Shown: positions 1 through 12,079 of the stretch, piece by piece
Position numbering within the stretch: the first letter of the stretch is position 1
Layout: each line of letters opens with the position of its first letter
Assembly (NCBI GenBank): GCA_001310555.1
Contig: BAXO01000127.1
Location: forward strand, 1 to 12,079
From: Bacillus sp. JCM 19058
GTDB taxonomy: Bacteria > Bacillota > Bacilli > Bacillales_H > Bacillaceae_D
Direction: 5' to 3'
DNA length: 12,079 nt
Position numbers and translations under genes: made by a program
Notes under the pieces: model-generated
What the model saw: only the letters and a program-made list of their open reading frames with translations
Told to the model about the DNA's origin: nothing
Database searches by the model: none

Positions 1-30
1 GGGGGAATTGGAAGGTTTGAAAAGGAAAGC

Positions 31-973
31 ATGTTGAAAAAAAATCAGAAGTTAATTCTCTCAAATCAACATAAAACTAATTGGACTAAATCAGAAAAAA
101 TTGGGAGTTATATTTATTAGCCTTACCTGTAGTTGCATACTTTTTAATCTTTAAATATTTTCCTATGTATGGTGTTCAGATCGCGTTTAAAGATTTTGTT
201 GCAACCCAAGGGATATTAGGGAGTTCTTGGGTTGGATTTGAACATTTTATTCGTTTTTTTCAATAGTTTTTATTTTTGGAGATTGATACAAAATACAATT
301 GGACTAAGTTTGTACAATTTAGTTGTTGGGTTTCCAATTCCAATTATTTTAGCATTGCTAATCAATGAAATTCGTCAAAAATATTTCAAAAGTTTTGTGC
401 AAACAATTACTTATGCTCCTCACTTCCTTTCAACAGTTGTCGTTGTAGGAATGTTGTTTCTATTCTTATCACCTAATGGGCTCGTTAATCAAATAATAAA
501 CATAGTAGGTTTTGAAACAATTTCTTTTATGACACAGCCCGAGTGGTTTAAGACGACGTATGTGTTTTCTGGGGTTTGGCAACAGATGGGATGGAGCTCC
601 ATCATTTATCTTGCGGCTCTCTCTGGAATCGATCCACAGCTTCATGAGGCTGCTAAAATGGACGGTGCTAGTAGGTTGAGGAGAATTTGGCATATTAATT
701 TACCTGGTATTCGCTCGACAGTTATTATTTTACTAATTTTGCAGACTGGAAGTATCGTCAGCGTAGGCTTTGAAAAAGTTTTCTTAATGCAAAATGATTT
801 GAATATGGCGGCTTCGGATGTTATAGCCACTCATATTTACCGAACCGGAATAACAGGAGCACAGTATAGTTATTCCTCTGCTATTGGCTTATTCGAGTCT
901 GTCATTAATTTTTTTCATTCTCATTTTTGTGAACTATGCTGCAAGAAAAACTAGCGAAACGAGTTTATGGTAA
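31..973 (+). pseudogene. CUT1 sugar ABC importer permease, LplB-like (frameshifted as read)
   Basis: Inner-membrane permease of a carbohydrate ABC importer, partner of the permease that follows. The N-terminal frame starts at ATG 31 behind AAAGGA (21-26). Restored, it gives about 313 residues, the usual LplB length. It contains KYFPMYGVQIAFKDF, the family signature after the first membrane helix, and the EAA loop (EAAKMDGASRLRRIWHINLP) near residue 206, which contacts the ATPase. It ends YAARKTSETSLW and stops at 971-973. Three single-base frame breaks are visible: A6 at 95-100 (needs 7), T7 at 254-260 (needs 6) and T7 at 909-915 (needs 6). The largest unbroken piece is 232-954, but its TTG start and its last residues are frameshift artefacts. 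The 12 bases between its restored stop and the next start imply co-translation. Substrate cannot be read from sequence; family members carry oligosaccharides. Confidence 0.88.
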
Positions 974-985
974 GGAGTGATTCCG

Positions 986-1873
986 GTGAGGGAAAGTTTT
1001 GGAGATCGAATGTTTGGAATCACAGTATATATATCAATTACATTAGTCACTCTTGCCGTCATCTATCCGCTCTTATACGTACTAAGTGCTTCGTTCAGTG
1101 AGCCAGGAGCGGTATTGAGAGGTGAACTTTGGCTTTGGCCTGTGAATCCTACGCTAGACGCTTATCAAAGTGTATTTAATAATCAAGATGTTTGGACAGG
1201 TTTTCGTAACACCTTTCTGTACACAACTTTAGGAACACTGTTTAACCTTGTTTTGTCTGTTATGGTTGCTTATCCTTTATCGCGAAAAGATTTTTATGGG
1301 AGGAGAATTCTTACAATTTTCCTAGTATTCACAATGTTCTTCAATGGAGGAATGATTCCAACATACTTGCTTGTTAGGGATCTAGGTATGTTGAATACTA
1401 TTTGGGCAATTATAGTGCCGGGTGCTGTTTCCGTTTACAATGTCATTATTATTCGGACATTCTTTCAAAATATTCCCGAAGAATTGAAAGAATCGGCTGA
1501 ACTGGATGGCTGTTCAAATATACAGTACCTTTTAAGGATCTTACTACCGCTATCCAAACCAGTAATTGCAGTGATGATACTTTTTTATGGGGTTAGTCAA
1601 TGGAATGCATTTTTTGATGCATTAATTTATTTAACGGATCGTGGGCTCTATCCATTACAACTATTTTTACGGGAGATGTTAATTCAGGAGCAAATGGCTG
1701 ATATGATTCAGCTTGCGGATTCAACATTAGATGCCCATGCAATGCGAATTGAAGGGATTAAATATGCAGTTGTTATTGTTGCAAGTTTACCTATGCTTAT
1801 TCTTTATCCCTTTTTACAGCGTTTTTTTTGTCAAGGGAGTCATGATTGGCTCTTTAAAGGGATGAAGCTTTGA
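986..1873 (+). CDS. CUT1 sugar ABC importer permease, YtcP/LplC-like
   Basis: Second permease of the importer. I choose GTG 986, not GTG 977, because AAGGAG at 972-977 would overlap the earlier start but sits 8 bases before 986. The protein starts MRESFGDRMFGITVYIS, the typical YtcP start (ESFGDR, then helix 1 with YPLLYVLSASFS). The EAA-type loop ESAELDGCSNIQYLLRILLP begins near residue 169. Five to six hydrophobic segments are seen. The C-terminus as read is abnormal: family members end FLQ-RFF-V-KG-V-M-I-GSLKG. Removing one T from the T8 run at 1822-1829 gives exactly that ending, with a stop at 1863-1865 and 292 residues. As read the frame runs to 1873 (295 residues) with about 14 scrambled residues. 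It follows the lplB-like gene with 12 bases between and precedes the lipoprotein gene by about 120. Confidence 0.92.
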   Translation: MRESFGDRMFGITVYISITLVTLAVIYPLLYVLSASFSEPGAVLRGELWLWPVNPTLDAYQSVFNNQDVWTGFRNTFLYTTLGTLFNLVLSVMVAYPLSRKDFYGRRILTIFLVFTMFFNGGMIPTYLLVRDLGMLNTIWAIIVPGAVSVYNVIIIRTFFQNIPEELKESAELDGCSNIQYLLRILLPLSKPVIAVMILFYGVSQWNAFFDALIYLTDRGLYPLQLFLREMLIQEQMADMIQLADSTLDAHAMRIEGIKYAVVIVASLPMLILYPFLQRFFCQGSHDWLFKGMKL

Positions 1874-1987
1874 TAATAAGACTCTCTTATCAATGGTAGA
1901 CGGACTAGGTTAAGCCAATGAATCGTTAGAACACGAGAGGAAAGCTGCTTGTTTGTTACAATAAATTAATGAAAGAGGGATGAAAAA

Positions 1988-3607
1988 ATGCATAAGAGGT
2001 ATTACTTGGCGGTTATTATAGCTTTTAGCATGTTCCTATTTATCGGATGTCAATCAGATACTGCCACCGAAGTAAATGAGAGTGCAGCAGACAGTAATCT
2101 AACTGACTCGGGATTTCCAATTGTCAAAGAGCCAATTGACTTAACGTTTTTTACCGGTAAACCTCCTAATACAGGGAATAGCTATGAAGATACATTAGTA
2201 TGGGAAACCTATAGAGAACTAACGGATATAAATGTCGAGTTTCAGTTAATTCCATTTAGTGCTCTAGAGGAACGACGAAATTTATCATTAGCAAGTGGAG
2301 ACTACCCTGATGCTTTTCATACTGCCCGCTTATCTACTAATGACTTAATTCGTTATGGTGAACAAGGGGTGCTGATCCCGTTAAATGATTTAATTAAAGA
2401 ACATGCGCCTAATTTCCAAAAAAATTCTAGAGGGAAATCCAGATCTCGAAAAAGGGCTGACCATGCCCGATGGAAATATTTACTCCCTTCCAAGATACTT
2501 TGATCCAGAATTTTTGTCTTTAGCAATTGGTTCTCCACTTTGGATCAATGAGGATTGGTTACAAAAGCTTGATATGGATGAGCCAGAAACAACTGAAGAG
2601 TTTTATCAATACCTTAAAGCAGTAAAAGAAACTGATTTGCTTGGCGATAATTCAGGGAATGAAGTTCCACTTAGCGCAATGAATGTATCTGCTATTATTG
2701 CCCATTTAAAAGGTGCATGGGGGCTAGGGAATAGAGGTGTGGGGAACTCTACTGTTGATTTAGATCCTAAGACGAATACATTACGTTTTATTCAGACGGA
2801 TCCGTATTATAAAGAAGTGCTTGAATATGTAAATAAATTATACTCTGAAGGGTTGATTGATCCGGAAATCTATAATTCGTATGAATCGCCGGAATTTTTT
2901 TGCTAAAGGAGCTACAGGAAATTTGGGGGCAATTGTAGTAGGAAATCCGATTGCTACTATGGGTCAGGAACAATATATAGGATTAGCGCCTTTAGAAGGT
3001 CCGTATGGTGAGCGCCTTCAATCACAAATTAGACCATCACTTCTTGATACTGGCTCGTTTGCGATCACTGATAAAAACGAACATCCTGAGGCAACGATTC
3101 GTTGGATGGATTATTTTTATAGCGATGAGGGAGCAAGATTGTTTTTTATGGGAATCGAAGGAGAGACCTTTGAAGAAACAGAAGATGGACAATTTGTTTA
3201 TGTGGATAGCATTAATAATCCAGCTGATGGATTGACACAGGATCAGGCGTTAGCTGAATATTTTACCTGGTTAGGCGGGGGATACCCAGGGATGATAAAG
3301 CAAGAGTTTTTCCAAGGGTCGGAAGGATTGCCAAATGCGATAGAAGCTGGAAAGAAAACAGAGGAGTTTCTTCCAGATGAGATTTGGAGCAGTTTTAGCT
3401 TTGACGTAGAGGAATTAACTTTTTTTAGAAACGACGGGTTCAGATCTAACAACTTTTATAGAGGAAACGGAAGCTCAATTTGTAACAGGGACTAAGCCAT
3501 TTAGCGAATGGGATAGTTATGTTGAACAACTTGAAAATCTAGGTTTGAGTCGTTACATGGAAATAATGGAAGCTGCTTATGAACGTAATGTATCAGGAAA
3601 TGAATGA
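1988..3607 (+). pseudogene. Sugar-binding lipoprotein of the importer, LplA-like (frameshifted as read)
   Basis: Extracellular solute receptor for the two permeases upstream. ATG 1988 follows an AGAGGG ribosome site. The N-terminus is a lipoprotein signal: MHKRYY, a hydrophobic core and lipobox FIGC with Cys21, followed by an acidic Ser/Thr linker. Restored length is about 538 residues, typical of LplA-type binding proteins, which are longer than MalE-like ones. Recognisable family segments include PIDLTFFTG, SGDYPDAFHTARL, MPDGNIYSLPRYFD, WINEDWLQKLDMDEPETTEE, GSFAITDKNEHPEATIRWMDY and the C-terminal Y-ERN end. Three one-base gains split it: A7 at 2418-2424, T7 at 2895-2901 and T7 at 3420-3426 (each needs 6). 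The open pieces are 1988-2503, about 2426-2906 and about 2890-3495, with a last piece that reaches the true stop TGA at 3605-3607. A terminator follows 60 bases later. Confidence 0.87.
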
Positions 3608-3667
3608 AGTGAATGTAAGGTGCTTCATTGTAAGGGATATAGGAACAAAGAATTCATAAAGAAAAGT

Positions 3668-3693
3668 TAGGGAGCCAATGTGCTCCCTATTTT
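3668..3693 (+). terminator. Rho-independent terminator of the importer operon
   Basis: A perfect 8-bp stem, TAGGGAGC (3668-3675) with GCTCCCTA (3682-3689), encloses a 6-base loop (CAATGT) and runs directly into TTTTTA. It lies 60 bases after the restored stop of the LplA-like gene and closes the importer transcript. Confidence 0.85.
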
Positions 3694-4022
3694 TATTGAT
3701 CATTACGTTCACTCTATGAAAAATCAAATTATTATTTTTAGTATGGAGAAGTTACTAATCATAGAAGAGTGAGCGAAACAACGAGTTTGTGCTAAACAAT
3801 TAATCTTTTTTTTGTACATGAAGGGTGAATCAGTTTAAAGCGTAGACGCGGCGGTTAGAAGTATAGTAACCTAACGGTGATCTGCACTAGAGTTCCTATT
3901 AAGATGTTTTTTTGGAGCAAGCACATCTAGTTAAATAGTTTCTAATGTAAATTATAAATCAAAATACCTATCACACCAATTGACAGATATGAACGAATTT
4001 ATAAAAAAATTTAAAAAAAGGA

Positions 4023-4051
4023 TTGCATCTATTTACTAATATTGATACTCT
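4023..4051 (+). promoter_or_regulatory. Putative sigma-A promoter for the BNR gene
   Basis: TTGCAT (4023-4028), a 17-base spacer and TACTCT (4046-4051). The -35 is good; the -10 matches TATAAT at its first, second and last bases only. The operator-like site starts 7 bases after the -10, so a bound repressor would cover the start point. The same arrangement is found before lacI (TTGCAA-17-TACTGT, then the operator), and this recurrence is the main support. Confidence 0.5.
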
Positions 4052-4058
4052 TTAAATA

Positions 4059-4075
4059 GAAACCGATTACTAAAA
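4059..4075 (+). promoter_or_regulatory. LacI-type operator, copy 1
   Basis: GAAACCGATTACTAAAA. Centred on CG (4064-4065), as in most LacI-family operators. It matches the other copies across CGATTACTAAA. It lies just downstream of a putative -10, so it would act as a repression site for the BNR gene. Confidence 0.65.
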
Positions 4076-4105
4076 GCCAACCCATATGAAGAACGGTATA
4101 CTTGC

Positions 4106-4151
4106 TTATGAAACGAAGAGCGAGTAAACAAGCTCGATGTTTAGATCATAA
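4106..4151 (+). other. Imperfect hairpin in the BNR leader
   Basis: Nested arms TTATGAAAC (4106-4114) / GTTT..TCATAA (4139-4151) and GAGC (4118-4121) / GCTC (4132-4135) fold around a 10-base loop, with a 3-by-3 internal loop and a small bulge. No T tract follows, so it is not a simple terminator. It would lie in the 5' leader of the BNR transcript. Function unknown; it could be chance. Confidence 0.25.
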
Positions 4152-4296
4152 ATAGGAATCGTCTAAGTATGGATTGCTAGGAGTAAATGCACTATTGAGG
4201 GCGCTGTCATTGAGTTTTAAAGGGAACTTTCTTAACTGCCTTTTATAGGGAGAAATTGAAATGTCGCATATCCAAATAACATTTCATGAAGAACAA

Positions 4297-4312
4297 TTTA
4301 GTAATCGATTTC
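4297..4312 (-). promoter_or_regulatory. LacI-type operator, copy 2 (reverse orientation)
   Basis: On the - strand it reads GAAATCGATTACTAAA, identical to copy 1 except T for C at the fifth base. Its centre is about 241 bp from that of copy 1, close to 23 helical turns. A repressor tetramer could therefore loop the DNA between them, but whether this repressor tetramerises cannot be read here. Confidence 0.62.
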
Positions 4313-4462
4313 TTTTTTCTTGTTTTAATAATGCGTAAGTGAAGCCATTTATTTTTAGATTGGCCATACTAATTTTGAAAGGGGGATTGAAAAGCTTCCG
4401 TTAATTATCGGGATTTAAATATGAGTAGAGAATGAAGCGTCACCTAAGGAGGATGAATATTG

Positions 4463-5670
4463 ATGAGAGGGGAGGACTGCAGAAATTTCACTTCGGATGG
4501 AGCATGGTGTTTTTTTTGCAGACCCACGAGCAATCTATTATGAAGGAGAGCATAAGCGAACGTATGTCGGTTACTTGACAAGGGGTGGCGATATTATGGT
4601 TGGTTATTATGATCATCGTGACAATACGGTTTCATCTTCATTGATTAAGAAGGAATTTCAAATCGATGACCATGCCAATCCGACGCTTTATCTCGAGGAA
4701 AATGGGAATATAACTGTTTTTTATTCAGCCCATAACGGAGCAAAAATGTACTATCGAACATCGGAGTTACCAGAGAATATTTCGACATTTGGCCCAGAAA
4801 AAAACAGTCGTGACGAATAACGATGGAAAAAAAGGGTATACATACCCCTCTCCGATTTATTTAAAAAGTGAGCAACTGTTGCTGTTGTTTTGGCGAGGAG
4901 GAAATTTTAAACCGACATTGTCTATCCGCAAAGATGGGGAGTATTGGTCAGAGGCCAAGACATTGATACAAGGTGATGGTTTCAGGCCGTATATTCGCTT
5001 TGCATCAAACCATATCGATACTATTTATTTTAGTTTCACAGACGGGCATCCCAATGAGTCCAAAAATAATATTTATTGTGGATACTACCGGAATGGATAT
5101 CTTTACCGAGCCAATGGCGAGCAGATAAAGCGATTGGACGACTTACCTCTTCTCCCTAAGGAAATAGGAATTATTTATGATGCAAAGAAACATGGTACCA
5201 ATACGTGGGTGTGGGACATGGCCGTCGATCAGACGGGGAACCCGGTTATTGTCTATGCTGTATTTGAGTCCGAAACCGATCATCGTTACTATTATAGCCG
5301 TTGGACAGGTGAAAGTTGGATAACTAATGAGATTACTCGTGCCGGATCTTGGTTTCCACAAACCCCAATAGGTGAATCAGAACGAGAAACCTATTATTCT
5401 GGAGGGATTATATTAGATCCCCAAGACCCGTCCAATGTCTATTTATCCCGCCCGAAAAATAGGATATTTGAAATCGAGCATTGGCGAACGACAGATTATG
5501 GAAGTAAGTGGTCCAGTTCGGCAATCACTCAAGATTCGTCCAAGAATAATGTACGTCCGTTTATTGCGCGGGGACACCGAAACGGTGCCGCAGTCTTACT
5601 ATGGATGCATGGTGACTATACTCATTATACCGATTATCAAACAGCGATTAAAATCAAGTTAATTGAATGA
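4463..5670 (+). pseudogene. BNR_4-family beta-propeller protein, probable intracellular glycan lyase/hydrolase (frameshifted as read)
   Basis: Restored length is about 401 residues, starting at ATG 4463 (or TTG 4460) behind AAGGAGG (4446-4452). The start gives MRGEDCRNFTSDGAWCFFADPRAIYY, the usual N-terminal blade of BNR_4 (PF15892) proteins. No signal peptide, so probably cytoplasmic. Family segments in order: VGYYDH, DDHANP (His70), SAHNG (His90), GYTYPSPIYL, RGGNFKPT, FTDGHPNES (His195), WVWDMAVD, SETDHRYYYSRW (His273), AGSWFPQTPIGE, YYSGGIILDPQDPS, KNNVRPF. The fold is shared with ulvan lyases of PL24/PL25, but many relatives are uncharacterised, so lyase activity is inference. Two one-base gains break the frame: T8 at 4510-4517 (needs 7) and A7 at 4798-4804 (needs 6). 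Open pieces are 4497-4820 and 4789-5670. Two operators lie upstream and a second sugar receptor follows. Confidence 0.83.
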
Positions 5671-5723
5671 CCCTATTCGTAATAGCTGCATCTTGAATGT
5701 AGGCAGATTTAAAAGAAATAAAA

Positions 5724-5740
5724 AGTAATCGATTACTAAA
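5724..5740 (+). promoter_or_regulatory. LacI-type operator, copy 3 (perfect palindrome)
   Basis: AGTAATCGATTACT at 5724-5737 is a perfect 14-bp palindrome, followed by the AAA shared by other copies. It lies 100 bases before the second lipoprotein gene. I see no convincing promoter around it; TTGAAT at 5693 with a poor -10 is the nearest candidate. Confidence 0.7.
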
Positions 5741-5839
5741 GAAAATGCCTTTAAGTTCACCTAGATCCGCTCAATGTTCTGAATTAAAAGTAAATAGTCG
5801 AGTGACGAACACCTTTAATAAATAAGGAGTGAACGAATA

Positions 5840-7205
5840 ATGAAAAGGGCTAAAATTCAGTTACTTTCACTGCTTTTGCTGTTGAATACTACAGTGCTCG
5901 CTGGCTGCTTTGGAGATGATTCCGTTACTGGGAATGAGGATGAGGAGGGGGATGATACTGCACGAGCCGATGCTGTAGATGAACCAGTAACTTTACATGT
6001 GTATGATATTAATGCGGGTATTTCCGAAGATGTATTTAACGAGTTGTTTATTGCTCCGGTGGGAGAAGCACATCCGAATCTATCGTTTGAACATACGACA
6101 GGTAGCGCCTAGACGGCTTAGAAGACATGATGGCTTCAAGAGAGGTTCCCGATATTATAACGGCGTCATTTAGCCAATTCCCTCATTTAATGCGGATGGA
6201 ATTAGCGAGTGATTTACGACCACTTGCAGAGAAAAATCATATGAATCTCGATCGTTTTGACCCTGTAGTAATAGAAATTACTGAACAATTTGGGCAGGCC
6301 GGAGAGTTGTATGGGATTCCATTTTCGATGAACACGGGTGTTCTCGCATATAATAAAGATATCTTTGATTTGTTCGGTGTCGACTATTTAACAGATGGTA
6401 TGACTTGGAATGAGGTAATGGAGGTTGCTAGACAATTATCTGGCGAACAAGGGGGAGCAAGTTATCTCGGACTAGCACCACAGGCGCACATAACCTCACT
6501 CGTGCATACCCTTTACCAGTAGTAGATGAAGCTACGGAAGAAGTCGTGATCGAGAATGGAGCTTACAGTGAAGGCTACCGCGAAGTGTTTAGCTTGATAA
6601 GGGACATGTATCGCGTTCCAGGTGCGATTGATGATGGAGGCAATCCGGTTGCGGCAAATTCGAATGTATTTATCAATCAAGCGGTAGCAATGCTGCCTAA
6701 CTGGATTGCAGCTATGACCATTTTGTTAGACGATTTTGAAGAGGCTGGTTTGAGTAATTGGGACGTTGTGTCTTGGCCGGTGTTTGAACATGAACCGGGT
6801 GTAGGAAGACAGGCGGATTTTCATGTGATGATTCTCCCGCCAACGAGTGAAAATCATGATGCCGCTTTTAACGTGGTGGAAACGTTAGTTAGTGAAGAAA
6901 ATCAGGAAAAAATGAATAGTGGTGAACGAGGATTAGGTACGAGGGTAACGGTACTAGATGATCAAGAAATGAGAATGAATTATGGATCAGAATTTCCGCA
7001 ATTTGCAGATAAGAATATCGAAGGAATTTTTACTGTTGATACTGCAACTGTGCCACCGCTCACACCTTATACGGATGAAATACACTCGATTTTACAAAAT
7101 GTAGCCGTTCAAATGGGTACTGAGGATTTAGATGTTAACACAGCATTGCGTATCGCACAGGAGGAAGCGGAAATAGTCGTTCAAGAAATGAAGCAGCAAG
7201 AATAA
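5840..7205 (+). pseudogene. Family 1 extracellular sugar-binding lipoprotein (frameshifted as read)
   Basis: A second, different solute receptor, about 455 residues when restored, close to MalE-type length. ATG 5840 follows AAGGAG (5824-5829). A lipoprotein signal is clear: MKRAKIQ, a Leu-rich core, and lipobox LAGC with Cys23, then a very acidic linker. Family segments include MMASREVPDIITAS, ELYGIPFSMNTGVLAYNKDI, FGVDYLTDGMTWNEVMEVA, an AMLPNW region and a C-terminal helix. Two one-base losses split it. CC at 6108-6109 should be CCC (joins GSA to LDGLEDMMAS). CC at 6494-6495 should probably be CCC (gives ITLTRAYPLPVVDEAT); this second position is less certain. Open pieces are 5840-6112, about 6110-6522 and about 6496-7205. 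No permease adjoins it; it may share the upstream permeases or partners elsewhere. Confidence 0.85.
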
Positions 7206-7373
7206 TCGATGTCTTCAACAATAGTGCTTTTAATAATTCCTTAGGATTTTTTCTAGTAACTGCTATGGCCAATACAGACATTACATTTCCTAAAAACACA
7301 ATCGTTCATATAGGTCGAGGGTAAACAAGTAGTATTAAGCTGGCATGCCAAGACATTAAACGTATGAAAATAG

Positions 7374-7402
7374 TTGCAATCCTCTAAAAATACTGATACT
7401 GT
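7374..7402 (+). promoter_or_regulatory. Putative sigma-A promoter of lacI
   Basis: TTGCAA (7374-7379), a 17-base spacer and TACTGT (7397-7402). The start point would fall near 7409, at the edge of the operator at 7411. The -35, spacer length, -10 and distance to the operator closely match the candidate before the BNR gene. Confidence 0.55.
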
Positions 7403-7410
7403 TTTAGAAA

Positions 7411-7426
7411 GCAATCGATTACTAAA
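7411..7426 (+). promoter_or_regulatory. LacI-type operator, copy 4, in front of the repressor gene
   Basis: GCAATCGATTACTAAA, one base different from copy 3 across the shared 16 bases. It sits between the putative -10 and the ribosome site of the LacI-family gene, so autorepression is the simple reading. Confidence 0.72.
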
Positions 7427-7440
7427 AAGGATGAAAGCAA

Positions 7441-8483
7441 ATGAAAAAACATGCAACTATTTATGATATAGCAAAGAAAGCCAAAACGTCGACAGCTACT
7501 GTTTCCCGCGTGTTAAGCAATAGTAATTATCCAGTGAGGGCGGAGCTTAAGGAACGGATCCAAAAGGTAGCCAAAGAATTGAACTACATTCCAAATATGA
7601 TCGGGCGGCAATTGAAAACGAATAATAGTATGACGATCGGGGTGATTATTCCTTCGATTACTAACCCATTTTACTCTTCAATCGTTTTAGGGATAGAAGA
7701 TATTGCCAGAGATAGAGGTTATCATGTTCTTCTTTGTAATTCTCATCGTACTCCTGAACTTGAAGAAGAGTATTTAACAACTCTGTTTGAGAAACAAGTG
7801 AAAGGGATCATTGTTTCATCAATTTCGCATAAGAAAGAGTTGCTGGATGAGCTGATGCAAATGGGGTTAAATATTGTCGCTCTTGACCAAACAATTGAAG
7901 GGCTAAATAGTAGCCAAATTCACTTTGATTTTAAAAAAGGTGGTTACTTGGCGACTGAATATTTGATCGAAAAGGGACATCAAAAAATTGCCTTCATAAG
8001 TTCACCATTAACTCGTCCGAGCCGCTTAAGCGTTTTCCAAGGCTATCAAGAAGCTTTACAGAAGCATGGGATCGAAGTCAATGAAGCAATGATTCAAATT
8101 GCCTCACGAGAAGAGGAAATTTCTGATAAAAACTATGAATTTACGAACGGAATTGAATTCACTCGTCAGCTCTTAGCGGGGACGGACCTGCCAACAGCGA
8201 TATTCGTCTGTAATGATATGACTGCCTTTGGTGTCATGAATGAATTGGTAGCACAGGCATAAAGATACCTGAAGAGATGTCTGTTGTCGGCTTTGATAAT
8301 ATTGAATTCTCACAAATGGTCTCTCCGCCTTTAACAACCGTCCAGCAACCAGATTATGAAATGGGCAAAATGGCGTGTCATTTATTAATTGATCAATTAA
8401 CAGGAAAAAGAACCGATAATATTGACATTACGCTGCAACCGAAAATTATTGAGCGTCAATCAACTCAGGCATTGAAAAGGTAG
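7441..8483 (+). pseudogene. LacI-family transcriptional repressor (frameshifted as read)
   Basis: Probable local regulator of the locus. ATG 7441 has AAGGATG (7427-7433) 7 bases upstream. The N-terminal helix-turn-helix is intact: ATIYDIAKKAKTSTATVSRVL, the hinge-helix region ELNYIPNMIGRQLKT, then the periplasmic-binding-protein-like core with IGVIIPSITNPFYSSIVLGI, TEYLIEKGHQKIAFIS and IFVCNDMTAFGVM. One base is missing at 8256-8257: GG read for GGG would join VAQ to GIKIPEEMSVVGFDNIEFS, a classic LacI-family junction, giving about 347 residues. As read the protein would stop at 8262 and lack the last third of its effector domain; the remainder is open at 8277-8483. The closest putative operator lies just upstream, with three more sites or site pairs at neighbouring genes. 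The inducer is unknown; a breakdown product of the imported glycan is likely. Confidence 0.9.
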
Positions 8484-8758
8484 TGACCTCCTCATTTGAG
8501 TATAATTGTCACTATATTCAAACTAGCTTGTTAAACTTAGTGAATAGTTGAAGCACTGCTGAATGAAAGGTAGTGGGGAGGTGGCAAAACGATAATTCCA
8601 CCCCCTTCTCGACAAAATACTGTCTTTGTTCTTTGCTAGGGGGCCATTATTGTGCTAAGCAAAGTATGTTCAATTCTCAATTATAGGTTGCGAGCACGAG
8701 GGTATGAGGATAGTCATGAGCGAAATGCTAGCTGCCGAATAATAAATTCTCATAAAAA

Positions 8759-8774
8759 GAAACCGATTACTTTA
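8759..8774 (+). promoter_or_regulatory. LacI-type operator, copy 5, before the dehydrogenase operon
   Basis: GAAACCGATTACTTTA is identical to copy 1 over its first 13 bases and diverges after. It lies about 145 bases upstream of the first dehydrogenase start and is the only copy before this three-gene operon. Confidence 0.62.
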
Positions 8775-8823
8775 TTGTGGTTAATATGCTGTTTCAGAAC
8801 CTTAATTTTCAAGATGTGTTCGT

Positions 8824-8844
8824 ACTCAAAAAAAATTTTTGAGT
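8824..8844 (+). other. Perfect A/T-rich hairpin in the dehydrogenase leader
   Basis: ACTCAAAAA (8824-8832) pairs with TTTTTGAGT (8836-8844) around AAA. The stem is 9 bp and mostly A-T, with no T run after it, so it is not a typical terminator. It lies between the operator and the ribosome site and may be an mRNA-end or leader structure, or chance in A/T-rich DNA. Confidence 0.3.
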
Positions 8845-8903
8845 GAGTGTTCATAGAATCAAAATTTAGTAAATTTAACAATTTAACTTAAGAGGTGGTT
8901 CTA

Positions 8904-9941
8904 ATGTCCAAGAAAATGAAGTTCGCAGTTGTCGGTGCGGGGGTTATTTCAGCACTCCACGGAAAAGCAATAGCCGCAAATGAAGAAGCGGAGCTAGTAG
9001 CGATTTGTGATACGGATCAAGAAATGGCGAATGAATTTGCTAAGGAATACTCAGCCCAGAACACATTCACTGACTACGAAACTATGTTTAAGGAAGTAGA
9101 GATTGATATTGTCTCCGTTTGCGTACCGAGTGGACTCCATGCAGAGGTGGCAATTGCTGCAGCTAAGGCAGGGATTCATGTCCTATGTGAAAAGCCGCTT
9201 GATATTTCTGACGAGAAAATGACGGAAATGATTAGCGTCTGTCGTGAAAATCGTGTAAAGCTCGGTGGTGTTTATCAACGTCGCTTGTTAGAGGCGGCAA
9301 TCCTTACTCGGCAAGCGATCCAGGAGGGAAAACTAGGGAAGATTGTTTTAGGCGATGCTTACTTAAAATATTACCGTAGTCCTGACTATTATGCGAGCGC
9401 AGGCTGGCGGGGCACTTGGGAGCTGGATGGAGGTGGTGCGCTAATGAACCAAGGTGTCCATGGAATTGACTTGATTCAATGGATGGTCGGCGAGGTTGAT
9501 TCAGTCTTTGCATATGCGGCTCCATTAGCTCGTAATATTGAGGTTGAAGACACAGCTGTTGTCACAGTGAAGTATAAAAATGGTGCCTTTGGCGTGATTC
9601 AAGGAACAACCTCCGTCTATCCTGGTCAAGAAACGCGATTTGAAATTCATGGAGAAAGAGGCTCGATTATTTTTGGTGATAAAGGCTTTAAACAATGGAA
9701 AATCATTGATAGTGATGAAACGATTCCGAAAGCTGAGGGTGAGGATGGAGGAAGTAGCGATCCGAAGTCGATTTCAAAACGAGGCCATGAAATCTTCGTT
9801 GATGATATCATTGCTGCCGTCCGTGAAGATCGTGAGCCGCTGGTCCCAGGTGAGGAAGCGCGAAAAGCCGTTGATTTAATTCACGCCATTTATGAATCAG
9901 CAAGGTCAGGCAAAGAAGTCAGAGTCAAGGGCTCAATGTAA
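8904..9941 (+). CDS. Gfo/Idh/MocA-family NAD(P)-dependent sugar dehydrogenase
   Basis: Cytoplasmic oxidoreductase of 345 residues, likely acting on a sugar or sugar acid. I choose ATG 8904, 5 bases after AGAGGTGG (8891-8898); the in-frame GTG 8895 lies inside that ribosome site. The N-terminal Rossmann domain has FAVVGAGVISALHG, an acidic end of strand 2 (AICDTD) and CEKPLDIS, whose Lys97 is the family's catalytic lysine. The C-terminal domain has GGGALMNQGVHGIDLIQWM, where His186 is the usual acid/base and Asn182 stands where inositol dehydrogenase has Asp. That Asn variant is seen in many members. Length and both domains are complete and the frame is intact. It heads a three-gene operon with the genes at 9962 and 10877. 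The exact substrate cannot be assigned. Confidence 0.93.
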   Translation: MSKKMKFAVVGAGVISALHGKAIAANEEAELVAICDTDQEMANEFAKEYSAQNTFTDYETMFKEVEIDIVSVCVPSGLHAEVAIAAAKAGIHVLCEKPLDISDEKMTEMISVCRENRVKLGGVYQRRLLEAAILTRQAIQEGKLGKIVLGDAYLKYYRSPDYYASAGWRGTWELDGGGALMNQGVHGIDLIQWMVGEVDSVFAYAAPLARNIEVEDTAVVTVKYKNGAFGVIQGTTSVYPGQETRFEIHGERGSIIFGDKGFKQWKIIDSDETIPKAEGEDGGSSDPKSISKRGHEIFVDDIIAAVREDREPLVPGEEARKAVDLIHAIYESARSGKEVRVKGSM

Positions 9942-9961
9942 GCAGGAAGGGGAGTAGTCAA

Positions 9962-10855
9962 ATGGATGAATTGAAAATTGGAATGATTGGCCTTGATACG
10001 TCCCATGTAGTCGCCTTTACAAAGCTATTAAATCGACCCGAAAATGAGTATCATGTTCCTGGAGGTCGTGTGGTCGTTGCATTTCCTGGCGGATCGCCGG
10101 ACATGGAATTAAGTCATTCGCGGGTTAAAGGGTTTACTGAACAAATGCGTGATAAATTTTCTGTTGAGATCGTTGATTCTCCCAAGGCAGTTGCAGAAAA
10201 GTGTGACGCAATTTTGCTGGAATCAGTCGACGGCAGAGTACACCTTGAGCAATTTCGTGAGATCGCTTCATATGGAAAACCGGTCTTTATCGATAAGCCG
10301 TTTGCTATCAGCTCAAACGATGCATTGGAAATGGTACAGCTTGCCAAACGATATCGTACACCATTAATGAGTGCCTCAGCACTAAGGTGTGCAGAAAATT
10401 TAACAAATACTTTAGCTAAATTGGAGGGCAAAGACATTCTTGGTGCTGATACGTATGGACCGCTTGCTCTCGAAGAGCATCATGGGTTGTTTTGGTATGG
10501 GATCCACACGGCGGAAATGCTTTTTCGGATTCTGGGAAAAGGCTGTAAGCAAGTTACGGTAATCAAAAATGATGACTACGATTTGATTATCGGGGAATGG
10601 AAGGATGGCCGAATGGGTAGCTTGCGTGGGAATCGAAAGGGGAATACCACGTTTGGTACAGCCATTCATCATCAAAAGGGGATTGAATTTGCGAATGTTG
10701 CTGGTAAGCCTTACTATGCCTCCCTGCTTGAAACGATTATGCCATTTTTTCAAACAGGGAAGGCAGATATCCCAATCGATGAAACGGTAGAGATTGTGCG
10801 CTTCCTAGAAGCAGCGAATGAAAGTCGTCGAACTGGGGAAACCGTCGAATTATAG
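9962..10855 (+). CDS. Second, divergent Gfo/Idh/MocA-family oxidoreductase
   Basis: 297 residues; ATG 9962 follows GGAAGGGGAG 21 bases after the previous stop. It is clearly in the family but differs from its neighbour. The N-terminus KIGMIGLDTSHVVAFTKLLN has GLDTSH in place of the usual GxGxxG loop, so cofactor binding may differ. IDKPFA provides the catalytic lysine (Lys112) and EEHHGLFWYGIHTAEMLFR the C-terminal catalytic region with His182. It is shorter than the 330-390 residues common in the family, with no sign of truncation. The pair of dehydrogenases in one operon suggests an oxidation followed by a reduction or a second oxidation on the same sugar, as in inositol-type pathways; this is inference. 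Frame intact. Confidence 0.9.
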   Translation: MDELKIGMIGLDTSHVVAFTKLLNRPENEYHVPGGRVVVAFPGGSPDMELSHSRVKGFTEQMRDKFSVEIVDSPKAVAEKCDAILLESVDGRVHLEQFREIASYGKPVFIDKPFAISSNDALEMVQLAKRYRTPLMSASALRCAENLTNTLAKLEGKDILGADTYGPLALEEHHGLFWYGIHTAEMLFRILGKGCKQVTVIKNDDYDLIIGEWKDGRMGSLRGNRKGNTTFGTAIHHQKGIEFANVAGKPYYASLLETIMPFFQTGKADIPIDETVEIVRFLEAANESRRTGETVEL

Positions 10856-10876
10856 CGCGTAAGGGAGGAAGTGTTC

Positions 10877-11741
10877 ATGCTTGAGAGGTTAGGTGTATTG
10901 ACAGATGAAGTGTCGGAAAATATTGTCGAAGCTTTAGATTGGGCAAGCGCTCAAGAATTGAAGCATGTTGAAATTCGACTCGTGAATGGAGAAAATGTAG
11001 CCGATTTGTCAGATATAGAGCTTGCCGATTTACTCTTTGAGGTCGAAAAGAGGAATCTCTTCATTTCGTGTATCGCTTCGCCGTTATTCAAATGTGCACT
11101 TGATCCAACGAGAGAAGTAGCTTCTGGAGATACATTTGGACAAAAGGAAGAAAGTGTCGAAGCTCACTTTGCAAAGCTCGATCGGATGATTGAGATTTGC
11201 AAACAGCTGCGCACAGATAAGATTCGCATTTTTTCCTTCTGGCGAGAGAAAAACCCGGCCGCACATGAGAAAGAAGTCATTCAGCATTTACAGAGAGCTG
11301 CAAATATAGCAAAAAAAAGCAGGTGTATACCTCTTACTGGAAAATGAGAGCGCTTGTAATGGAGGCTATGCAGCAGAAGTGGCACGAATCGTGCGTCAGG
11401 TGAACTCACCGAATGTTAAGGTTCTTTGGGATCCGGGGAATGAAGTTCATGGTGGTCGTTCCGCGTATCCGGAAGGCTATCAAGCAGTCAAAAAGCTAAT
11501 TGGGCAAGTACATCTAAAGGATGCTTATGTGAATCAGGATGGGCAAGGTGTCTGTGTACCGATCGGTGAAGGAAGAGTGCCTTTTGCTGCGCAATTACAG
11601 GCTTTGCAGCAGAATGGCTACAGGGGCCTGTTCACGATTGAAACACACTACGTCCCTGCAGGAGGAAATGCGATGCAAGGAACGGAAATGACATTGGCTG
11701 GGTTACGAAAGCTCGTGCTGGAAACTGCCAACGAACGGTAG
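10877..11741 (+). pseudogene. Sugar phosphate isomerase/epimerase, AP-endonuclease-2-like TIM barrel (frameshifted as read)
   Basis: Xylose-isomerase-like TIM-barrel enzyme (PF01261), about 287 residues restored. ATG 10877 lies 8 bases after AAGGGAGG (10861-10868), better than GTG 10871. The start LERLGVLTDEVSENIVEALDWA and the HVEIR strand are typical. The four metal ligands of the family are all present once the frame is repaired: Glu155 (LLLENES), Asp185 (LWDPGN), His212 (VHLKD) and Glu255 (FTIETHY). One extra A in A8 at 11311-11318 (needs 7) breaks IAKKAGVYLLLENE, leaving open pieces 10877-11347 and about 11319-11741. It is the last gene of the dehydrogenase operon, 21 bases after the previous stop, and a strong terminator follows. 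Likely isomerises or epimerises the ketosugar made by the dehydrogenases; dehydratase activity is also known in this fold. Confidence 0.87.
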
Positions 11742-11790
11742 AACGGATTTTTTTGCCGGAAATAGAAAAGCAGGAGAGGTGACTCTTGCA

Positions 11791-11833
11791 GCATCCTCAC
11801 GGAGATAGTTGAAACGTGAGGGTGCTTTTTTTT
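11791..11833 (+). terminator. Strong rho-independent terminator of the dehydrogenase operon
   Basis: An 11-bp stem (one G-U pair), GCATCCTCACG (11791-11801) with CGTGAGGGTGC (11815-11825), has a 13-base loop and is followed by eight T residues (11826-11833). It lies 50 bases after the TIM-barrel gene. Confidence 0.92.
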
Positions 11834-11899
11834 AAAAAACGAGTATGTTCACGGTTGTTCAAGAGCACCAATATGACTTGGAAGGGGCTTAAACAGAAG

Positions 11900-12079
11900 A
11901 TGAATGCCAGTATCGAACCTACAGAGAGAAAACAAATTGAAAACCTAATCGTACAGGTGTATGACGATCGGATGCAAATGGGGCAGGCTGCTGGAGTGGC
12001 TATAGCAGCTAAAATGAAAGAATTATTGGCGGAGAAAGAATCGGTTCGCATGATTTTTGGATCAGCACCATCACAAAAT
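11900..12079 (+). CDS. Glucosamine-6-phosphate deaminase/6-phosphogluconolactonase-like protein (5' part only)
   Basis: About 60 codons before the window ends. ATG 11900 gives MNASIEPTERKQIENLIVQV, followed by an N-terminal helix rich in Ala/Met (MQMGQAAGVAIAAKMKELLA) and MIFGSAPSQN. The last strand resembles the phosphate-binding edge of NagB-like proteins, where the MIFA-APSQN form marks the paralogous group found in sugar clusters rather than housekeeping NagB. The start is uncertain: ATG 11873 is in frame but has no ribosome site, while GGAAGGGG lies a long 12 bases before 11900. It sits after a strong terminator, so it would need its own promoter or read-through. If real, it would act on a phosphorylated (amino)sugar. 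Function beyond family is not readable from the fragment. Confidence 0.72.
   Translation, partial: MNASIEPTERKQIENLIVQVYDDRMQMGQAAGVAIAAKMKELLAEKESVRMIFGSAPSQN

Follow-up and report, generated by a model that had tools for sequence, protein, structure and literature searches.

Which protein reads a short CG-centred motif that recurs five times among sugar genes is the question raised by a 12,079-nucleotide stretch of Bacillus sp. JCM 19058 (contig BAXO01000127.1, positions 1 to 12,079 of the forward strand, assembly GCA_001310555.1), here called the window in its whole length. The window encodes a LacI-family regulator of its own (7441 to 8480, plus strand), and from sequence comparison it is very probable that the five sites are operators of this protein and make up a dedicated local regulon. 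The other reader to be weighed above all is CcpA, a protein of the same family that acts at the cre boxes of carbon-catabolite control.

Five sites between the genes of the window

An exact pattern search of the whole window finds AGNAAYCGATTACT at 4058, 4300 (minus strand), 5724, 7410 and 8758 and at no other place, a palindromic copy being counted on both strands, and 200 dinucleotide-preserving shuffles of the window gave zero matches. The right-hand part of it, CGATTACTAAA, to which AGNAAYCGATTACT adds the left half, is exact at 4064 (plus), 4297 to 4307 (minus), 5730 (plus) and 7416 (plus), the fifth copy at 8764 reading CGATTACTTTA, which agrees with the initial annotation in its description of a CGATTAC-type motif with a longer form common to four of five copies. 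The central CG is present in all five, as had been stated there, and the outer bases are AG...CT in every copy. All five sites fall between the open frames of the window and so the earlier claim that none lies inside a gene holds; a further near-copy is a right half with one mismatch (CGATTACTAAC) at 7655, inside the lacI frame, which lacks a left half, scores below 4 bits by the matrix described below and is thus no counter-example to the intergenic placement.

The predicted operators S1 (4056 to 4073, plus strand, ATAGAAACCGATTACTAA) and S2 (4298 to 4315, minus strand) lie before a BNR_4 family gene as a distal and a proximal site, with centres 242 bp apart. Predicted operator S3 (5722 to 5739, plus strand) includes the perfect palindrome AGTAATCGATTACT and precedes the second sugar-receptor gene. 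Predicted operator S4 (7408 to 7425, plus strand) has its 3' end 15 bp upstream of the lacI start codon, and predicted operator S5 (8756 to 8773, plus strand) lies between lacI and a dehydrogenase operon.

The regulator piece scores above cut-off for the Pfam families LacI (59.3 bits) and Peripla_BP_1 (82.2 bits), and so combines a LacI helix-turn-helix with a sensor domain. In the window regulator and its closest relatives Thr-Ala stands before TVSR and the hinge reads GRQLKT. In LacI-family operators a hinge leucine goes with a central CG (PMC2978694), and the leucine of GRQLKT matches the central CG of all five sites. By the same source, the two recognition residues go with operator bases 4 and 5, counted from the centre. 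The open frame of the gene runs from 7441 to 8262 and homology resumes in another frame at 8244 to 8480. Similar frame changes, with homology continuing at once or nearly so, occur also in the first permease, the first receptor, the BNR and the TIM-barrel genes (window 93 to 11741); several of the breaks stand at A/T runs of seven or eight, and the compared relatives have whole genes. Sequencing error is a more likely source of the breaks than gene decay, and the regulator is therefore probably intact in the organism.

The motif at loci and in genomes of relatives

Protein searches and genome contigs returned orthologues of the window LacI protein at 74-81% identity, and the best 80 orthologue loci with DNA from genome contigs were used. 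A de novo search for 14-mers in the 250 bases upstream of lacI at 21 loci of at least 50% identity, with the window excluded, gave as best-shared word TAGTAATCGATTTC/GAAATCGATTACTA, present within two mismatches at 12 of the 21 loci; in five base-shuffled controls the best word reached 3 or 4 loci. An iterated palindromic matrix, for which the window was again left out, drew 33 sites from 17 of the 22 loci searched, 11 of which have a site before lacI and 14 a site behind it, and has the consensus ATAGTAATCGATTACTAT. This window-free matrix ranks the five sites of the window first (S3 24.5, S2 23.9, S4 23.2, S1 23.0 and S5 21.4 bits), with the next match at 5.5 bits, and its highest score in 939 kb of more distant background loci is 19.4 bits. 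Across 19 sequences only 7 of 39 sites of at least 20 bits fall inside crude open frames, though these frames cover 88% of the bases, and some of the seven are just upstream of the matched lacI start in a frame called too early. A looser pattern, AGNAANCGNTTNCT, is about as common in ten genomes as its reversed control, and so the symmetrical half-site alone is unspecific and specificity resides in YCGATTACT.

A site stands before lacI in all six examined relatives of at least 74% identity, scoring at least 20.0 bits at the loci L001 to L004 and L018 and 18.8 bits at L161, and the gap from site end to start codon is 14-15 bp at L001 to L003, close to that in the window. S4 would thus be an autoregulatory site with counterparts at the orthologous lacI genes. 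A held-out set of 30 orthologue loci came from 104 genomes of one family, 29 of which had a match; nine of them duplicate, base for base, loci that had gone into the matrix or into the search behind it and were set aside, and 15 of the remaining 21 carry a site of at least 20 bits within about 1.5 kb either side of lacI. Among these 21, L131 and L132 nearly duplicate one another (96%), and there are stretches of 72-90% identity between some of the loci, or between them and training loci.

Genome-wide spread was assessed in 24.2 Mb, the sum of five whole genomes of relatives that have a close LacI orthologue. Ten distinct places carry the exact pattern there, and eight of them are no more than 100 bp from the matched range of the gene for that orthologue (three in G001, two in G002, one each in G003, G004 and G005); the two places away from lacI are both in G004 and score below 15 bits by the matrix. 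A reversed-pattern control gave four matches in the same five genomes. The initial annotation had proposed this very check, concentration of sites near this LacI gene as opposed to spread over catabolic genes, and as run in relatives it points to the former. A sixth genome, G187, has one exact place, just after lacI and before ABC genes, and its LacI orthologue is 75% identical. Genome G300 has the enzyme genes, with dehydrogenase-type proteins 76% and 62% identical to those of the window, a TIM barrel at 66% and a relative of the last gene of the window, and is without an orthologous lacI, its best-scoring LacI-family match being 37% identical and none of 14 above 38%. The exact site is absent from the whole of G300 and nothing of 13 bits or more is found at its enzyme operon, and so the motif seems to follow the regulator and not the enzymes, on the evidence of one genome of its kind. 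Overall the proposal of a local LacI regulon, as made in the initial annotation, is well supported by the exact sites beside lacI, by the held-out loci and by the joint absence of regulator and sites from G300.

From the computed sites, their intergenic placement and their tie to orthologues of the regulator we infer that a LacI dimer would bind the pseudo-palindrome (A)TAGTAATCGATTACTA(T), centred on the CG, before its own gene, the dehydrogenase/isomerase operon, the second sugar receptor and the BNR gene. The dimer would most likely repress rather than activate these genes until a sugar of the pathway binds the regulator and releases it. A LacI-type dimer that represses until its inducer arrives is the usual mode of the family. 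Most LacI-family members are described as local regulators of sugar genes whose palindromic sites are centred on CG (Ravcheev et al. 2014, PMC4052901), and the sites of the window resemble those regulons as there described in having an even CG-centred palindrome, upstream placement, more than one site at some operons and sugar genes as targets, and differ in the motif of their own with A.T at the outer pair. The relatives do have conserved operators at the regulator and at adjacent operons and few elsewhere, the pattern expected of a local regulon.

Several observations weigh against so simple a picture. The matrix search came up with no site at five of its 22 loci, and six of the 21 held-out loci have none of at least 20 bits. 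None of 17 BNR loci of relatives has a site of at least 14 bits. Some of the more distant lacI orthologues have VA, AA, SA or PA at the recognition pair; several of these loci still have the motif, and so the recognition pair alone does not set it. In Paenibacillus filicis (L103 to L108) further strong sites occur near other ABC sugar operons, on several contigs, and in this species the motif may belong to a broader regulon or to one shared with a paralogue. The best promoter-like pairs near the sites of the window score 9.0-9.5, against a median of 8.5 and a 90% point of 9.5 at random positions; a promoter scan of the window found 15 as against 16.1 expected from shuffles. With promoter-like sequences at chance level, promoter blocking is only a candidate mode of repression. 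An overlap of the sites with the transcription start is not put forward, as promoter-like pairs near the sites are no better than those at random positions.

CcpA and other candidate readers

The likeness of the sites to cre boxes is real, in that both have the same length, the same centre and a similar core, and the window regulator and CcpA are of one family. The initial annotation had counted copies 3 and 4 as one mismatch from cre; this does not stand, since every one of the five sites departs from WTGNAANCGNWWNCAW at two positions, in each case the outer T and A, and from WWTGNAARCGNWWWCAWW, the Miwa form quoted in PMC2697999, at three. The window regulator also differs from CcpA in its recognition pair and hinge, given above, CcpA having Met-Ala and ARGLAS. 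By the curated ccpA model (cut-off 442 bits) the window piece reaches only 176 bits and full LacI orthologues 225-243 bits, and all five genomes of relatives contain a separate CcpA at 489-544 bits. The best-scoring solved relatives of the LacI orthologue are CcpA-type chains, named glucose-resistance amylase regulator, which we take to be CcpA. Among NCBIfam models RbsR gives the window piece its top score, 177.4 bits against a cut-off of 382, a partial comparison as the 273-residue piece is shorter than the profile; a likeness to RbsR-type repressors thus goes with a score far under the curated cut-off, and no ribose gene was recognised among the window pieces scanned.

A double control, in which the LacI protein would be the main reader and CcpA would bind weakly to the same sites, is rather unlikely. 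It could draw on the core ATCGAT, which the sites of the window share with the S. aureus cre ATTGTAATCGATTACATT published in PMC9598941, and on the site before lacI at L018, one half of which is cre-like. Against it, the gaps of the window contain, the five sites apart, no CG-centred match within two mismatches to either cre form.

That the sites are themselves cre boxes of CcpA under global carbon-catabolite control, with the lacI gene as a bystander, is improbable. The 14-base layout with its CG centre is that of cre, the core is that of the staphylococcal box just mentioned, and one study allowed two mismatches to cre (PMC2697999). However, the outer T/A pair is missed by every one of the five copies, where the base pair is reversed, and the exact sites in the five relatives lie beside lacI and are rare elsewhere, local and not global in their distribution. 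Around the five CcpA genes themselves no site reaches 14 bits. One gap of Bacillus sp. SD088 has both a perfect TG...CA box and, 55 bp away, an AG...CT site, and so the two coexist as different sequences. The suggestion of carbon-catabolite control as an alternative, raised in the initial annotation, accordingly loses ground, and CcpA is unlikely as the main reader given the outer base pair missed in every copy.

It is more improbable still that the reader is a different LacI paralogue encoded in the same genome, even though each relative genome has 14-38 matches to the ccpA model, partial ones included, and though sites in P. filicis occur near other ABC operons. Among 53 distant paralogue loci, trimmed to a length similar to that of the orthologue loci, none has a site of at least 20 bits; these being largely from other phyla, 20 paralogue loci from the genomes G001 to G005 were added as a control, and none of these has a site either, the top match being 18.3 bits. 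The 14 paralogues of G300, a genome with no orthologue, are likewise accompanied by no exact site. A dispersed short repeat or chance similarity of no regulatory meaning has a negligible probability, for although AT-rich gaps could raise random matches, the shuffles gave none, the same position is conserved in relatives and across genera, and copies elsewhere are few.

Target genes and the likely pathway

The dedicated LacI regulon, as the preferred reading of the five sites, was said by the initial annotation to join four transcription units under one regulator, and this stands for two of them through relatives and for the other two through the sites of the window only. The supported members, by sequence comparison, are predicted to be lacI and the operon behind it. 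The loci L001, L002 and L161 have a strong site in the gap from lacI to the ABC genes heading the same cluster, and L003 has one of 17.2 bits there; L018 has a site between lacI and a dehydrogenase gene, as S5 in the window, and L004, with the lacI-dehydrogenase order of the window, has no site between the two. The operon of the window begins with a Gfo/Idh/MocA dehydrogenase (8904 to 9941, plus strand, by Pfam), followed by a second Gfo/Idh/MocA-like protein (9962 to 10855, plus strand, by Pfam). Next is a xylose-isomerase-like TIM-barrel gene with a broken frame (10874 to 11741, plus strand), the first piece of which scores 28.2 bits, below the Pfam cut-off of 31.1, its intact L003 relative scoring 104 bits. 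The best solved-chain matches of the first dehydrogenase (8895-9941) are 3q2k/3q2i at 210 bits, presumably sugar-nucleotide 3-dehydrogenases; C3 may then be where oxidation takes place. The last gene, cut by the contig end (11816 to 12079, plus strand), is probably the start of a NagB-like gene by similarity to proteins of relatives (43-59% identity over 46-74 residues), those of L001 and L004, when scanned, being NagB-like; the piece itself matched no NCBIfam family. At L018 (2649-17171, Bacillus niameyensis) there are equal-length second copies of the aldehyde and proline dehydrogenase genes, of the second dehydrogenase-type gene and of the TIM-barrel gene, only the first aldehyde and proline dehydrogenase copies having been scanned, and this may be a real duplication or an assembly fault.

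The genes for an ABC sugar transporter, two permeases and a lipoprotein receptor by Pfam (93 to 3604, plus strand), have their promoter off the contig. An ABC operon of P. filicis with permeases 57% and 46% identical to those of the window is preceded by two sites, and so the ABC operon of the window is likely a further member of the regulon. The second receptor gene (SBP_bac_1; 5840 to 7205, plus strand), in three open pieces, the middle one of which was scanned with Pfam, is a candidate member by virtue of S3. The BNR_4 gene (PF15892; 4457 to 5670, plus strand, identified by Pfam and by homology across frames of a broken gene) is similarly a candidate through S1 and S2 in the window. Its co-occurrence with lacI is only suggestive (8 of 17 genomes against 29 of 104, P 0.055). 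Of 104 genomes in the family to which Paenibacillus filicis (G006) belongs, 17 have relatives 52-60% identical to it; the names listed give no activity, and no sequence match was found among solved structures. BNR_4 occurs in ulvan lyase and in L-rhamnose-glucuronate lyase (PMC13193363, PMC8377490), which does not settle the substrate. A plasmid collection contained no DNA similar to the window.

What sugar the pathway would handle is suggested by the operons of relatives, which continue with a Glucosamine_iso (NagB-like) protein (125.5 bits at L001 and 118.2 at L004, against a nagB cut-off of 237) and include an amidohydrolase; of three such proteins scanned, two reach the NagA cut-off of 225.65 (228.1 and 227.9 bits) and that of L018 scores 219.5. 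The presence of NagA- and NagB-like genes suggests an amino sugar, and the substrate is most likely an N-acetyl amino sugar or a derivative of one. It is quite possible, and put forward here tentatively, that an unnamed LacI group of Bacillales and some clostridia, with its own AG...CT operator and a private regulon beside CcpA, controls an undescribed amino-sugar pathway of two Gfo/Idh/MocA proteins, a TIM-barrel isomerase and NagB- and NagA-like proteins; calling this pathway undescribed is guesswork. The circuit type itself is well known, and the sites give an operator sequence and a predicted target set to an uncharacterised LacI group. The finding provides a base-pair rule that separates sites of the LacI group from CcpA boxes within one and the same genome, and points to an amino-sugar operon, possibly undescribed, as the main target of the regulator in close relatives.

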